From contig JAFTWZ010000037.1 of NCBI GenBank assembly GCA_017465055.1, positions 1-41,621 of the forward strand: 41,621 nt of DNA, given 5' to 3'. Numbering within the stretch: the stretch's first letter is position 1; the number at the start of each line of letters is the position of its first letter. A model generated the notes under the pieces. The model saw only the letters and a program-made list of their open reading frames with translations. It was not told the DNA's origin and made no database searches. The DNA comes from Alistipes sp. (GTDB taxonomy: Bacteria > Bacteroidota > Bacteroidia > Bacteroidales > Rikenellaceae). A program made the position numbers and the translations under genes. This document shows, in pieces, positions 35,800 through 40,389 of this stretch.

Positions 35800-36981
35800 T
35801 TAGTCAAGCGGATAGGCTGCGACGAAACAGTCGCCCGTGCGGAGCTGCTCCTGGTGCGCCTTAAGGTTGGCAATCGACACATCGCCAATGATATAGCTAT
35901 ACTCCTCGGAGGTGTACTGCTCGCGTATCTTACTAAAGTTAAGCAGGTGTCGCTGCTCCTCGGTTCTGTAGCGGAAGTAGATGCGGAAACTGTGCTCGGT
36001 GGTGTAGTGTGGTAGTACCGAGTCGTTACGCTTCTTATACTCGTAGCGGTAGTTATAGGCACAGGCCGTAATATCGCTAAGCACGGCCGAGCCAGTAGGG
36101 TGGCCACCAGCGCCGCGACCGAACATAAACTGCTTGTCGTAAAAGAGTCCCTTGATAACTACGCCGTTGAACTCATCCTCGACGCTATAGATGTACTTGT
36201 TGCGCGAGATAAGCTGTGGCAACACACACATAATAAGACTATCGCCGACCTTCTCGACGTGTGCAACGAGCTTTATACGGCGATCCTTCTCGCGAGCAAA
36301 GCGTATGTCCGAGTCGTTCATAGTCGAGATGCCGTAGGTCAGAATCTCGTCGGGTGCTACGTATACGCCGAAGGCGTGCACGGTGATGATTATCAGTTTG
36401 TAGAGCGAGTCCCAGCCGTCGATGTCGAGCGTGGGGTTGCTCTCGGCAAAGCCTAAATCCTGAGCTAAGCGCAGGGCGTCGTCGTAGGACATATTCTCAT
36501 TAAATATCTTTGAGAGGATGAAGTTTGACGAGCCGTTGAGGATGCCCTTAACCGAGCAGAGCAGGTCGTTATCGTAGTACTCCTCGAGGTTACGGATTAC
36601 GGGTATCGAGCCGCAGGCCGAGGCGTCGTAGAGGAGCGGAGTGTTGTACTGCTCCTGCAGGTCTATAAGCTCGAGGATATGGTGGCCGAGCATCTTCTTA
36701 TTTCCCGAGACTACGGGGATGCGGCTCTTAAGTGCGCGCTTGACAATGGTGTATGCCGCCTCGGCATCGTCGATAACCTCGACGATAAGGTTTATCTCGG
36801 GGTCGTTGAATATCTGGTCGGCATCGTCGGTAAACTCAGCGTCGACACCGCGATCCTTCGTTATGTCGCGCACGCAGATGCGGCGGATATGTACGCTCTC
36901 CGACTCTATGCGGTCGAGTACGTCGTAGAGGCCTCGGCCCACGTTGCCAAAGCCAAAGAGTCCTATGTTCAATCGTTTCAT
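35800..36981 (-). CDS. hom: Homoserine dehydrogenase (monofunctional)
   Basis: This 393-residue enzyme reduces aspartate semialdehyde to homoserine with NAD(P)H. The cofactor loop is LFGFGNVGRGL (residues 8-18). SGNKKMLGHH at 92-101, ASACGSIPVIRNL at 120-132 and VKGILNGSSNFILSKI at 144-159 are family motifs. The catalytic Asp and Lys fit D191 and K195 in DGWDSLYKL, with E180 in LGFAESNPT. There is no fused aspartokinase, unlike the bifunctional ThrA commonly found in Bacteroidota, and I see no classical C-terminal ACT regulatory domain, though the last 60 residues are unassigned. It is the last gene of metY-metX-hom, 78 bp after metX, which suggests it is dedicated to methionine synthesis. 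The gap has a GAGAGG/CCTCTC inverted repeat. Confidence 0.92.
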   Translation of the reverse strand: MKRLNIGLFGFGNVGRGLYDVLDRIESESVHIRRICVRDITKDRGVDAEFTDDADQIFNDPEINLIVEVIDDAEAAYTIVKRALKSRIPVVSGNKKMLGHHILELIDLQEQYNTPLLYDASACGSIPVIRNLEEYYDNDLLCSVKGILNGSSNFILSKIFNENMSYDDALRLAQDLGFAESNPTLDIDGWDSLYKLIIITVHAFGVYVAPDEILTYGISTMNDSDIRFAREKDRRIKLVAHVEKVGDSLIMCVLPQLISRNKYIYSVEDEFNGVVIKGLFYDKQFMFGRGAGGHPTGSAVLSDITACAYNYRYEYKKRNDSVLPHYTTEHSFRIYFRYRTEEQRHLLNFSKIREQYTSEEYSYIIGDVSIANLKAHQEQLRTGDCFVAAYPLD

Positions 36982-37059: not shown

Positions 37060-38082
37060 TTAGCCTCTCCCTAAAAAATTCTCAATGATTGTGTTTAGCT
37101 TCTCGTGCTCTACGAGGAAGCCGTCGTGACCAAACTCCGACTCTATGAGGTGATACTCCGCCGTGGCGATGTGCTCCCTTAGTGGCCTATGTGCCTCTGG
37201 TGGGAATAGTATGTCGGACGAGATGGCCACGATGAGCGTGCGCGCCTCGATGCGTCGCAATGCCTCGGCGATAGAGCCTCTGCCACGCGCAATGTTGTGT
37301 GAGTCGACAGCCTCCGAGAGTCGGTAGTACGACAGCGCGTTAAACCTGCGGCGTAGCTTCTCGCCCTGGTACTGCTGGTAGCTGTGTGCTCGGCGCTCGA
37401 ACGATACCTCTGTGGCGTCGCCTATCTCCTGTTGCGTAGCGTTGTAGGCCGCACCTCCGCGATAGCTTATGAGGGCTATCGAGCGTGCCACGGCCATACC
37501 ATCTATGCCGGCATCGTCGCGCCTCTCTCCCCACGTCGGGTCGAGACGTATGGCCATACGCTGCGACTCGTTGAAGGCTGCAGCCCAGGGCTCGGAGCAG
37601 GTGGTGGTGGCTATAAGCGCAAGGTGCTCGGCAAACTGAGGCTCGGAGATAGCCCACTCCATAGCCTGAAAGCCGCCTATCGAGCTGCCTATGAGCATCT
37701 TAACGCGCTCGATGCCAAGATGCTTGGCCAGCAATCTGTGGCACGTGACCATATCGCGCACCGTGATGCGCGGAAAGTCGTAGTAGTACTTCTCGCCAGT
37801 CTCGGGGTTGATCGACAAGGGCGAAGTGGTGCCATAGTGCGAGCCGAGGAAGTTGGCGCATATAACAAAGTAGCGCTCGGGGTCGAGAAAGCGCCCCTGC
37901 TCTACGGTGTGTGGCCACCAGTCGGCAACATCGGAGTTGGCCGTCAGCGCGTGACACACCCATATGATGTTGTCGCGCTGGGCGTTTATCTTGCCGTAGG
38001 TGTCGTAGACGATATCTACCCCCTTGAGCACCGCCCCCGACTCGAGCGTTATAGCCTCGTTATGATGGTATATATGGCTCAT
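37060..38082 (-). CDS. metX: Homoserine O-acetyltransferase (MetX family)
   Basis: With the start at 38082 the protein has 340 residues and begins MSHIYHHNEAITLESGAVLK. It is an alpha/beta hydrolase-fold acyltransferase that activates homoserine, normally with acetyl-CoA. The nucleophile is in LIGSSIGGFQAMEW (Ser134), the Asp in VAISSDILFPPEAH and the His in EFGHDGFLVEHEKL. CHALTANSDVADWWP near the front and NFLGSHYGTTSP (oxyanion and substrate region) are family motifs. Acetyl rather than succinyl specificity follows from pairing with metY but was not proven residue by residue. An in-frame ATG at 38142 would overlap the end of metY by 50 bp and add 20 residues unlike the family; the start at 38082 leaves a 10-bp gap. 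Confidence 0.92.
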   Translation of the reverse strand: MSHIYHHNEAITLESGAVLKGVDIVYDTYGKINAQRDNIIWVCHALTANSDVADWWPHTVEQGRFLDPERYFVICANFLGSHYGTTSPLSINPETGEKYYYDFPRITVRDMVTCHRLLAKHLGIERVKMLIGSSIGGFQAMEWAISEPQFAEHLALIATTTCSEPWAAAFNESQRMAIRLDPTWGERRDDAGIDGMAVARSIALISYRGGAAYNATQQEIGDATEVSFERRAHSYQQYQGEKLRRRFNALSYYRLSEAVDSHNIARGRGSIAEALRRIEARTLIVAISSDILFPPEAHRPLREHIATAEYHLIESEFGHDGFLVEHEKLNTIIENFLGRG

Positions 38083-38092
38083 AGTCGAGAGT

Positions 38093-39376
38093 CTAAATAT
38101 TTGCCAGTGCCTGTTCGTAGTCGGCGATGATGTCCTCGACATCCTCCAGGCCGAGCGATATGCGTAGCAACGTAGGTGTGATACCTGCGGCGCGCTTCGC
38201 CTCGTCCGAGAGCTGCTTATGTGTCGTCGAGGCTGGGTGCGTAACTACGCTTATAGAGTCACCTATCATAGTCATATTGCCCGAGAGTTTAAGTCCCTCG
38301 ACAAAGCGTACGGTAGAGTCTAAGTCGCCCTTAAGCTCGATGGTCATAACAGGAGCTGCGCCAAAACGGAAATACTTTTGTGCCAACTTATAGGTTGGGT
38401 GTGAGTCGAAACCTACGAAGCTCACGCGCTCCACCTTAGGGTGGTTCTTGCAATACTCCGCAAGGCGATATGTCGACTCTACCTCGTGCTTAACGCGTAG
38501 CGAGAGGGTCTCTAAACCGATGAGCATAAGGTAGGCATCGAAGGGCGAGGGACAGCAGCCGAAGTCGCGCATACCATCGACGCGGCACTTGACGATAAAG
38601 GCTTGATTGCCAAAGGCGTCGTATAAGTTAAGGCCGTGATATCCCTCCGAAGGGCCATCTATCGTCGGGAATTTACCCGAGGCGCGCCAGTCGAACTTAC
38701 CGCTGTCGACGATGACGCCACCCATAGCCGTGCCGTGGCCATTTATCCACTTTGTCGCCGAGTCGGTGATTATATCTGCGCCCCAATCGAATGGGTTGCA
38801 GAGGTATCCTCCTGCGCCGAAGGTGTTGTCGACGATAAGGGGTATGTTGTTGCTATGTGCCACCTCGGCCAGTGCCTCGATGTCGGCCACGCGGCAGGTG
38901 GGGTTACCCATCGACTCGACAAAGAGTGCGCGTGTGTTGCCATCAACTAAGGCGGCCATATCCTCGGGGCTGTCGCTCTTGGCCAAGCGACACTCTATGC
39001 CCACGTTGCGCAGCGAAATGACAAACTGGTTGTGCGTACCTCCGTAGAGATATGGCGAGGCCACGATATTCTCTCCTGCGGCTGCAAGTGCCGTTACCGT
39101 AAGCAGTATGGCCGACATTCCCGCTGCTGTAGCCAGTGCGCCAACACCATCGTATAGGGCGGCAATGCGCTCCTCGTAGGCTGCGGTGGTGGGGTTATGC
39201 AGACGGGTGTATATGTAGCCCGGCTCGCTGAGCGTAAAAAGGTTGGCGGCATAGTCGCACGTAGGAAAGTGGTATGCTGCCGTAGGGTGTATGGCTATAC
39301 CACGTGCGTTGGTCTGGTCTACGTGGTAGCCTCCGTGTATCTGTCGCGTCTCGAAACGCAGTTTGTTATCTGACAT
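38093..39376 (-). CDS. metY: O-acetylhomoserine sulfhydrylase
   Basis: The PLP enzyme of 427 residues joins O-acetylhomoserine with sulfide to give homocysteine. Features are FETRQIHGGYHVDQTNARGI at the front, YIYTRLHNPTTAAYEERIAA, ASPYLYGGTHNQF, FVESMGNPT, IPLIVDNTFGAGGYLCNP and the PLP lysine in DSATKWINGHGTAMGG (K209). Length and the PIHPTAAY-like start fit the Cys/Met metabolism PLP family of the MetY type rather than MetB or MetC. It is the first structural gene of the met operon. Upstream lie about 130 nt of structured leader and a short Met-rich ORF. A possible secondary -7 box (TATATTTG, complement 39399-39406) is 23 nt before the start but has no good -33 partner. Confidence 0.95.
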   Translation of the reverse strand: MSDNKLRFETRQIHGGYHVDQTNARGIAIHPTAAYHFPTCDYAANLFTLSEPGYIYTRLHNPTTAAYEERIAALYDGVGALATAAGMSAILLTVTALAAAGENIVASPYLYGGTHNQFVISLRNVGIECRLAKSDSPEDMAALVDGNTRALFVESMGNPTCRVADIEALAEVAHSNNIPLIVDNTFGAGGYLCNPFDWGADIITDSATKWINGHGTAMGGVIVDSGKFDWRASGKFPTIDGPSEGYHGLNLYDAFGNQAFIVKCRVDGMRDFGCCPSPFDAYLMLIGLETLSLRVKHEVESTYRLAEYCKNHPKVERVSFVGFDSHPTYKLAQKYFRFGAAPVMTIELKGDLDSTVRFVEGLKLSGNMTMIGDSISVVTHPASTTHKQLSDEAKRAAGITPTLLRISLGLEDVEDIIADYEQALANI

Positions 39377-39424
39377 AGTATCTATGGTTTGGTTTATACA
39401 AATATACGCAAAATAGTCGCTCCG

Positions 39425-39516
39425 CCATCATCGTTATGACGGTCTGTAAAATATGTGTTCGGTTGGGGGTGGTAGCACGTAGCTACACAATAGGAAGTAG
39501 TGTGCCTAACGGCACA
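39425..39516 (-). promoter_or_regulatory. Structured leader of the met operon (three hairpins)
   Basis: Read as RNA on the minus strand, three hairpins follow the leader ORF. H1 (39501-39516) pairs TGTGCC with GGCACA around GTTA and contains the stop codon of the leader ORF. H2 (39472-39486) pairs GTAGC with GCTAC. H3 (39425-39442) pairs CCGTCAT with ATGATGG (one G-T) around AACG, with TATTTT about 10 nt later. GGCAC of H1 could instead pair with a downstream GTGC at H2, so alternative folds are possible. No strong hairpin directly followed by a T-run was found, so transcription attenuation is not proven; translational control is equally possible. No SAM riboswitch motif was recognised. Confidence 0.5.
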
Positions 39517-39637
39517 TTCGCATAGACATCATATACATAGAGATAGCAACTGCTGTCGACATCTGAGCAGTCACATCCTCATAAATAGTCTTACTGCCTT
39601 TTGCAGTTTGAAGTATGTTGTCTATTGCGAAGTTCAT
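39506..39637 (-). CDS. Met-rich leader peptide of the met operon (43 aa)
   Basis: The ORF starts MNFAIDNILQTAKGSKTIYE and ends ISMYMMSMRMCR. Six of its seven Met residues lie in the last 18 codons, five of them within eight residues (positions 34-41). The start codon is only about 20 nt after a perfect promoter, so it is the first thing translated on the metY-metX-hom transcript. Its stop codon is inside a 6-bp hairpin, and two more hairpins precede metY. It has no signal peptide or recognisable domain. This is the classical layout of an amino-acid leader peptide whose translation senses charged tRNA-Met. The function is inferred from context and composition; it could instead be an unrelated small protein. 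Confidence 0.6.
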   Translation of the reverse strand: MNFAIDNILQTAKGSKTIYEDVTAQMSTAVAISMYMMSMRMCR

Positions 39638-39656
39638 TTGTAGTTCGTAGGTTTTG

Positions 39657-39688
39657 CAAAGATAGGTAAAAAAATCGGTATATACAAA
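39657..39688 (-). promoter_or_regulatory. Promoter of the leader peptide and met operon
   Basis: Minus-strand TTTG (complement 39685-39688), 20 nt, then TATCTTTG (complement 39657-39664): a full consensus match. The expected transcription start is near 39650, giving a leader of about 275 nt before metY. Confidence 0.88.
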
Positions 39689-39717
39689 TGGTTTGCACGG
39701 TCAGTCTGCTCGACACT

Positions 39718-39921
39718 CTACTTTTGCACCACGACATTGCGAGCCTCGATGCGTCCGTCGTCTGCCGTCGCAACGTCAAACTCTACGCGCCAGTTATGCT
39801 TCAAGGTGCGATACCCCTCCTTCACCACGGCTGTGTAGTGAACGTAGACATCCTCCCCTGCCTCCGAGGTTATGAAGCCGTAGCCACGCTTATCGTCGAA
39901 CCATTTAACGCGCCCTTTCAT
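39718..39921 (-). CDS. Cold-shock domain protein (CspA family)
   Basis: This 67-residue protein is a single cold-shock domain. It starts MKGRVKWFDDKRGYGFITSE, with RNP1 (RGYGFI, residues 12-17) and RNP2 (VYVHYT, residues 25-30). The family binds single-stranded RNA or DNA and melts RNA structure. Both RNP motifs keep their aromatic residues except that RNP2 has Tyr-Val-His-Tyr where many CspA proteins have Phe-Val-His-Phe, a common variant. It has its own promoter and a very short leader, without the long cold-sensing 5' UTR of E. coli cspA. The met leader promoter begins 30 bp after its stop on the same strand. Confidence 0.93.
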   Translation of the reverse strand: MKGRVKWFDDKRGYGFITSEAGEDVYVHYTAVVKEGYRTLKHNWRVEFDVATADDGRIEARNVVVQK

Positions 39922-39944
39922 CCTATAGTTGCATTTTAGTAGTC

Positions 39945-39974
39945 CAAAGTTACGAAATTTATTATTTACGACAA
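39945..39974 (-). promoter_or_regulatory. Promoter of the cold-shock gene
   Basis: Minus-strand TTG (complement 39972-39974), 19 nt, then TAACTTTG (complement 39945-39952). The -7 box lies 23 nt before the ATG. Confidence 0.82.
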
Positions 39975-40002
39975 TACCATGATGCTAAAAAATTGCGTTA
40001 TA

Positions 40003-40034
40003 TTTGTAGAATCGGAGAAAATAGCATATATTTG
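40003..40034 (+). promoter_or_regulatory. Promoter of the lipoprotein/radical SAM operon
   Basis: TTTG at 40003-40006 is followed after 20 nt by TATATTTG at 40027-40034. It is divergent from the cold-shock promoter, and the ATG is 37 nt downstream. Confidence 0.82.
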
Positions 40035-40071
40035 TGAGGGTAAATGTTTCATATAATATAAACTGAAAACT

Positions 40072-40389
40072 ATGAATACTAAGTGGAAGTTAGCTCTCTT
40101 GGCACTCTTGGGTTTCTCGGCAACGGCTTGTTGCGGAACAAAGAAGGCCACGAAGAGTGAGGATAAGAAGATTCAAGATATAGTATCTGAAGAGGAGGAT
40201 CCTCGCATTATGCTTATGTACGGTGTGCCTACTCCCGAGGGTGAGATTGCTCGTCCTATAGAGGAGGGTGCGCCATACCCCGATGGTAGCGTCGTTAAGC
40301 CTATCTCCGAGGAGGAGGCTAAGGAGCGTGTCGAGAAGATAAGAGCCGAGAAGGAGGCTCGCGAGAAGGAGGCTGCTGCCGAGGAGTAA
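40072..40389 (+). CDS. Radical SAM-associated small lipoprotein
   Basis: The 105-residue protein has a lipoprotein signal (MNTKWKLALLALLGFSATAC, Cys 20) with a second Cys directly after it (CCGTKK). A Lys/Glu-rich linker leads to a conserved-looking core, RIMLMYGVPTPEGEIARPI, and a related second half (GAPYPDGSVVKPISEEE); the end is a charged helix. It matches my recollection of the family TIGR04134 (putative lipoprotein with radical SAM), always encoded next to a TIGR04133 radical SAM/SPASM protein, which is what follows here after 13 bp. Residues after the Cys pair are basic, not acidic, so it is probably periplasmic rather than surface-exposed. It may be the substrate of the enzyme; that is inference. 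Confidence 0.82.
   Translation: MNTKWKLALLALLGFSATACCGTKKATKSEDKKIQDIVSEEEDPRIMLMYGVPTPEGEIARPIEEGAPYPDGSVVKPISEEEAKERVEKIRAEKEAREKEAAAEE

Follow-up and report, generated by a model that had tools for sequence, protein, structure and literature searches.

What controls the metY-metX-hom operon of an Alistipes-type genome, in which the 341-nt interval between metY and the neighbouring cold-shock gene holds what appears to be a methionine-rich leader? Methionine control in bacteria is usually ascribed to SAM riboswitches, T-boxes or repressors, and a methionine codon-counting sensor would be unexpected because Met is also needed to start the leader. The leader elements and the three genes all lie on the minus strand of the stretch of 41,621 nt that was analysed (hereafter, the window; Table 1). 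The cold-shock protein gene (39718–39921) sits directly upstream of the leader; it was rejected as a partner of the latter, since a match was found within the fetched flanks in 8 of 27 loci carrying the same form of leader (form 1, see below).

The layout that had been proposed in a sequence-only reading of this DNA was readily retraced. The claimed promoter, consisting of TTTG, a spacer of exactly 20 nt and TATCTTTG (and which we take to be of the Bacteroidetes –33/–7 type), is present, and is followed 20 nt past TATCTTTG by the ATG (at 39637) of the claimed 43-codon ORF. The leader peptide ends in ...MYMMSMRMCR, and its stop codon (TAG) does sit within the hairpin TGTGCC-GTTA-GGCACA (hairpin 1). 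Both further hairpins said to precede metY (hairpins 2 and 3) were found as well, together with an additional small hairpin of 4 bp, and the 284-nt leader folds better than 200 out of 200 dinucleotide shuffles (z of –3.2). The observed features (i.e., promoter, ORF, hairpins and Met codons) are thereby confirmed as real and far beyond chance.

Table 1. Operon and leader features of the window.
Feature	Coordinates	Strand	Basis
metY, O-acetylhomoserine sulfhydrylase	38093..39376	-	TIGR01326 above cut-off, PF01053
metX, homoserine O-acetyltransferase	37060..38142	-	PF00561; best NCBIfam TIGR01392 343.5 bits, cut-off of 500 not reached
hom, homoserine dehydrogenase	35800..36981	-	PF00742; NF004976 above cut-off
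Leader promoter: TTTG (39688-39685), 20 nt, TATCTTTG (39664-39657)	39657..39688	-	sequence
Leader ORF, 43 codons, MNFAIDNILQTAKGSKTIYEDVTAQMSTAVAISMYMMSMRMCR-stop, end ...ISMYMMSMRMCR-stop	39506..39637	-	sequence, same-genus conservation, frame statistics
Core ATGCGAATGTGCCGNTAGGCAC: last codons M-R-M-C-R-stop fused with hairpin 1	39502..39523	-	alignment A1
Hairpin 1, TGTGCC-GTTA-GGCACA, stop codon in loop	39501..39516	-	sequence
Hairpin 2, GTAGC-TACGT-GCTAC	39472..39486	-	covariation
C-rich, G-poor stretch 3′ of hairpin 2, possible Rho-loading region (inference)	39443..39471	-	composition
Hairpin 3, CCGTCAT...ATGGCGG	39422..39442	-	fold, read by eye
Second promoter-like element TATATTTG, 30 nt before metY	39399..39406	-	sequence

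The conservation of this leader was examined at the metY loci of the same genus. The metY gene was found in 129 of 151 genomes, at 138 places; 10 of these places were left out as diverged paralogs or fragments, and 128 were taken with their upstream DNA. A short ORF ending in M-C-R-stop precedes metY at 58 of these 128 loci (form 1; e.g., peptides ending in ...AMMATTAMSMRMCR, ...LMPMRYMRMCR or ...NIMVSMMMRMCR), and one more locus (L034), which ends in MCL-stop with the same stem, brings the total to 59. The N-terminal halves of the form-1 peptides are dissimilar except among close relatives, and the C-terminal end is Met-rich. Over the 45 nt before the last 18 nt, in 42 dereplicated loci out of the 58 (window included), 118 ATG triplets fall in frame vs. 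2 and 0 in the two others (mean of 11.1 and maximum of 25 in shuffles), and stops number 0 in frame vs. 43 and 17 out of frame. At the sequence level, this pattern is the signature of a leader peptide with an important end and an unimportant body. The expectation that a Met-rich ORF would be conserved before metY in relatives was thus borne out, with Met in frame only. A search with the whole peptide in 61 genomes was set aside (7 matches at E up to 10, of which only the window itself was confident and the next had an E of 0.084), full-length homology being the wrong test because the N-terminus is unconserved; the R1 search of 295 genomes of the order returned the window's own match and two weak ones (E of 0.016 and 0.028). 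Moreover, TAnnTTTG was located upstream of the leader at all 46 dereplicated form-1 loci, the gap between its last G and the leader ATG having a median of 21 nt (range 8–55) when, at loci with several candidates, the one nearest 21 nt was chosen.

In an alignment of 47 dereplicated loci (A1), the core is nearly invariant; 18 columns do not vary at all, and another 5 reach at least 90% across the full alignment. The hairpin 1 pairs GTGCC/GGCAC are intact in 47 of 47 loci, four of the five never varying and the other varying on one side only, so that hairpin 1 is conserved without covariation. Hairpin 2, in contrast, has two-sided changes in all six aligned pairs, with 84% of cells paired and 62 cells changed on both sides vs. 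21.2 in shuffles (0 of 500 as high). When both hairpins were tested jointly, the both-side-changed cells and the covariation score beat 500 of 500 shuffles, and two of the five measures, i.e., the number of changed pairs and the number of pair types, were not beyond them (46 and 54 of 500 as high). The covarying hairpins that the sequence-only reading had anticipated were thus found for hairpin 2 and not for hairpin 1. At two loci (L106 and L157), a TAA stop with one added base preserves both stop and stem. The Arg codon of the core, CGA, is invariant in the alignment despite its low usage (8.9% of the Arg codons in 19 uncurated ORFs of the window with at least 300 codons), so the core obeys some constraint on RNA or codon beyond what Met sensing accounts for. 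Judged by eye, the hairpin 2 loop (39481–39477) is also conserved among form-1 loci, mostly as Y-A-N-G, and hairpin 3 has counterparts in many but not all of them, no such hairpin being seen in, e.g., L084 and L085. There was no sign that the hairpin core is reused at other places, since its 31 other sites in the 151 genomes stay below the roughly 60 of the reversed pattern; the window's genome has one site.

A second arrangement (form 2) occurs at metY in 23 of the 69 same-genus loci without form 1, and combines a Met-run leader (e.g., MNTARRYDRVSEMLHQNMMMVMCMCNRFRRV-stop, then ATCCGGCTTCCCTGAGGTCGGATTTTTTT before metY), an antiterminator complement and a U-tract terminator. Judged from these elements, form 2 is a textbook attenuator at the equivalent place. 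Its C-terminus differs from that of form 1 (mostly R-V) and is equally Met-rich, but the rule by which it was first selected (Met plus a C-terminal R-V, R-G or R-M) asked for both and biases the Met count, so that its terminator and pairing form the independent evidence; one locus (L159) was dropped as spurious. A terminator-like hairpin precedes metY at 23 of 23 form-2 loci (shuffle mean 0.9), and in 14 dereplicated rows the pause hairpin, the terminator and the antiterminator GCCGGGU/AUCCGGC have 94%, 98% and 98% of their cells paired, respectively. The antiterminator arms hardly vary and show no covariation (all 500 shuffles score as high), and the pause hairpin and terminator show little (105 of 500 shuffles with as many two-sided changes). 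With the ribosome placed at the last Met, before the 3′ arm of the terminator exists, the modelled antiterminator probability is 0.81–1.0 in 14 of 14 rows, and with the ribosome at the stop it is 0, since the segment is then covered by definition. At equilibrium, most of the stalled states fold in favour of the terminator; this kind of folding was dropped as proof of the switch, which, if working, would therefore be kinetic.

Covariance model R2, built from 14 of its 23 strong form-2 matches, strongly matches exactly the 23 form-2 loci in the 151 genomes (E up to 1.7e-15, the next being 4e-6). Lower R2-type matches were inspected in part (21 loci), and the weak matches L198 and L199 look like ordinary terminators. 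Another weak match (L210, genome G374) was excluded as a Met leader because its leader is Thr-rich: at about 1477–1625 of the reversed locus, MTIQHTTSIIMGSTSMSTITTTALYD-stop and a strong terminator lie before an aspartokinase-like gene at 1651, which is likely a threonine-type attenuator in Bacteroidales. Locus L190 (genome G083) has at about 1447–1602 a Met-rich leader end (...MISMMMEMHGLKGRV-stop) with a terminator, no convincing gene behind it, and a 99% complete genome around it without a metY match at the threshold used; this leader is perhaps an orphan that remained after metY loss.

On a quick metY tree, form 1 needs 7 changes and form 2 needs 5, vs. shuffled means of 45.1 and 26.7, and each form is therefore clustered. 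Neither form was found at 46 of the 128 loci, among them the close sisters L020, L029, L036 and L160, and at some of these 46 a different gene appears to lie directly upstream of metY. One genome bin (G105), which may be mixed, contains two metY genes (C48 and C65; L010 and L160), one with and one without a form-1 leader.

Form 1 poses the question of how stalling could be reported in Bacteroidales when the leader shows neither a regular terminator nor a detectable fold switch. No intrinsic U-tract terminator was found in 39000–40100 of the window. Among the 59 form-1 loci, 11 have a terminator-like hairpin (shuffle mean 1.3), whose position differs from locus to locus and whose T run is often poor, so the group is not strictly terminator-free, but a terminator is not a constant part of it. 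The suggestion that GGCAC can pair upstream or downstream could not be upheld as meaningful, since its downstream partners hardly beat shuffled sequence (mean z of –0.33, with the shuffle mean beaten at 30 of 46 form-1 loci). No conserved downstream partner was found for either hairpin 1 arm in the form-1 loci, leaving both a mutually exclusive antiterminator pairing and a long-range pairing of these arms with the region before metY unsupported. Modelled stalling at the 46 loci brought no consistent change in hairpin 2, and raised access to the metY start, considered as another possible outcome, was rejected (up in 23 of 46). The window thus resembles a classical attenuator in having a short and presumably translated ORF between promoter and gene, with Met codons clustered at its end before a Met operon. 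It is attenuator-like, yet was not classed as classical, because neither a U-tract terminator nor a mutually exclusive antiterminator was found in it.

For the OFF step of form 1, our guess is that Rho ends transcription within the C-rich, G-poor stretch that follows hairpin 2, because of this stretch and of the small number of terminator-like sites in the window. C exceeds G over the 40 nt after hairpin 2 in 41 of 46 form-1 loci vs. 27 of 70 other metY loci, a comparison set that was measured at a different distance (–80 to –40) and contains the form-1 variant L034. Terminator-like sites in positions 1–40000 of the window are fewer than in shuffles (12 vs. 15.2, and 7 vs. 13.7), as could be the case in a lineage where factor-dependent termination is common.

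Taken from sequence comparison, a Met-sensing leader peptide before metY-metX-hom is well supported. RNA polymerase would start just past 39664–39657, and a ribosome would presumably translate the 43-codon leader. With ample elongator Met-tRNA, it would reach the stop codon, hairpin 1 could form, and the operon would be turned down before metY, in the window's form by the guessed Rho termination; with scarce Met-tRNA, it would stall at the Met codons that lie immediately before hairpin 1, and the operon would be expressed. Leader translation, stalling at the Met codons and the direction of control are what we infer here. The sequence-only reading had let Met scarcity stall the ribosome, refold the leader and turn the operon on. 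That Met scarcity turns the operon on is still the best reading, since Met attenuators with terminator and antiterminator stand at sister loci, but the refolding through GGCAC did not hold (no terminator in the window and no conserved partner). We consider it very probable that the leader is a methionine sensor in which scarcity of Met-tRNA stalls the ribosome and turns the operon on.

Other explanations were weighed against the same evidence. The nearly invariant C-terminal residues behind a free N-terminus, in a window without a terminator, would also suit an arrest peptide, whose nascent ...MRMCR would, at high Met or SAM, arrest the ribosome at the stop, much as TnaC arrests at its stop codon in response to tryptophan, and whose Met codons are not the sensor. 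However, the upstream Met codons vary in number and place, as codon counting predicts, and the residues at the end are not beyond exchange (Leu replaces the last Arg in L034, and Gln replaces a core Met in L026). The invariance also extends to the nucleotide level (CGA), and form 2 has another C-terminus with equal Met richness (both having been selected for). An arrest peptide, which is partly compatible with Met-codon sensing, therefore seems unlikely to us. We likewise give little weight to the idea that hairpins 1 and 2 make up a structured RNA, i.e., a new riboswitch-like element or a protein site, to which the ORF is secondary, although this too is partly compatible with Met-codon sensing. 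Its strengths are the near-invariant GCGAAUGUGCCGNUAGGCAC, the covarying hairpin 2 with its conserved loop, and the lack of a conserved switching partner in our searches; it is at odds with the strict frame, the absence of in-frame stops and the in-frame Met codons over 45 nt, with the promoter-to-ATG distance, with the Rfam scans of the leader, in which nothing reached or came close to a gathering score, and with the form-2 attenuators at the equivalent locus.

A leader that merely serves translation or mRNA stability, with Met control residing elsewhere and expression coming mainly from 39406–39399, would agree with the window's promoter-like TATATTTG, which lies 30 nt ahead of metY, and with the same-genus loci (46 of 128) that have neither form. 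It would leave the Met enrichment unexplained, however, and TAnnTTTG occurs between leader stop and metY at 8 of 46 form-1 loci (window included) vs. upstream of the leader at 46 of 46. The site at 39406–39399 is not general in form 1, yet may be a start in this species; the stability-only explanation as a whole strikes us as very improbable.

The usual methionine devices were searched for as well. The SAM riboswitch RF00162 was not found in the window, where an Rfam scan gave two tRNAs only, and a permissive scan of the leader returned no SAM family and nothing at or near gathering score, so that the riboswitch hit named beforehand as speaking against a Met leader did not appear. The T-box RF00230 had no match in either scan. 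Rfam gave no match on 20 of the 128 same-genus loci, and a SAM riboswitch was seen in 1 of the 151 genus genomes, with strict filters that may lose weak ones. Rfam was also run on all 80 named metY loci, 38 of which have a SAM riboswitch upstream of metY. At 15 of the 80, an ORF upstream of metY has 4 or more Met among its final 20 residues, vs. 2 on the reverse strand and a mean of 0.4 over 30 shuffles; 8 of the 15 fall in the 68 named loci outside the Alistipes-type rows, and 3 of the 38 riboswitch loci also carry such an ORF. Two of these eight, the Met-rich ORFs of L263 and L280, lie beside SAM riboswitches with no terminator seen and were not counted as Met leaders. In an Ignavibacteria MAG (L253), a Met-rich ORF with a terminator is followed by a SAM riboswitch with a second terminator, from about 400 to 60 nt before metY.

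Leader ORFs rich in Met precede metY outside the genus too, namely in a different family of the order (L197), in Bacteroidales MAGs (L238, L240, L242 and L244) and in Melioribacter of the Ignavibacteriota (L246). Folds of all six show a hairpin before metY, with a T run after all but L242, where the U tract behind is poor; a strict scan allowing no bulge calls a terminator in two of the six, L242 and L246. Stretches at the ORF end complementary to the 5′ arm of the hairpin (GAAGCCGG/CCGGCUUC in L242, GUGAAGGG/CCCUUCAC in L246 and UGUCGGAUCGGA/UCCGGUCCGACA in L244) were first read by eye and then tested for length against shuffles. Only L244 beat these (1 of 200 as long), the numbers for L197, L238, L240, L242 and L246 being 101, 40, 142, 54 and 85 of 200, respectively, and in L240 the longest complement lies elsewhere. 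As far as sequence goes, the Met leaders at these loci are firm and the antiterminators mostly are not. We tentatively propose, with doubts that outweigh our confidence, that Met-specific leader attenuators recur, where the SAM riboswitch is missing, at metY loci across the Bacteroidales and in one or more Ignavibacteriota genomes, and that one Alistipes lineage has swapped the regular terminator for a fused 22-nt core of last codons, stop codon and fixed hairpin with an undescribed readout. A Met leader, if true, would explain how methionine synthesis is controlled in Alistipes with almost no SAM riboswitches, and suggests that one gene (metY) has been switched between sensing devices.

Our search of the open-licence literature found no report of a Met-specific leader peptide or attenuator, an absence that is no proof. 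The specificities named in the available text of PMC3766115 are His, Leu, Thr, Trp, Ile/Val and Phe, with methionine not among them, and PMC2965389, in the part available, states that, ermC aside, leader-peptide systems had been shown in Proteobacteria and Actinobacteria only, and then adds Bacilli. Within Bacteroidota, clues of leader-peptide attenuation before amino-acid biosynthesis operons come from Flavobacterium psychrophilum (PMC9723704) and leader-like sORFs in 5′UTRs from Bacteroides thetaiotaomicron (PMC7366714); these share the 5′UTR location with the present leader, and the portions available of both papers mention no methionine leader.

The SAM riboswitch RF00162 (S-box) likewise occurs upstream of metY, as at the named loci above, but senses SAM by an aptamer. 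The classical leader attenuators (trp, his, leu, thr, ilv and phe; Rfam Trp, His, Leu and Thr leaders) likewise have a short leader ORF with codons for the pathway product near its end. Form 2 shares with them the pause hairpin, the antiterminator segment and the terminator, whereas the window's form differs in that no terminator or alternative pairing was found. Another likeness is offered by the cysteine leader peptides of Mycobacterium and other Actinobacteria, which, in the available text of PMC1262725, have the regulated codons near the stop without a terminator hairpin, and for which Rho is weakly suggested by the authors. As described there, these leaders concern cysteine, belong to another phylum and have no conserved terminator-candidate hairpins; form 1, by contrast, combines a conserved hairpin around its stop codon with a second, covarying one behind it.
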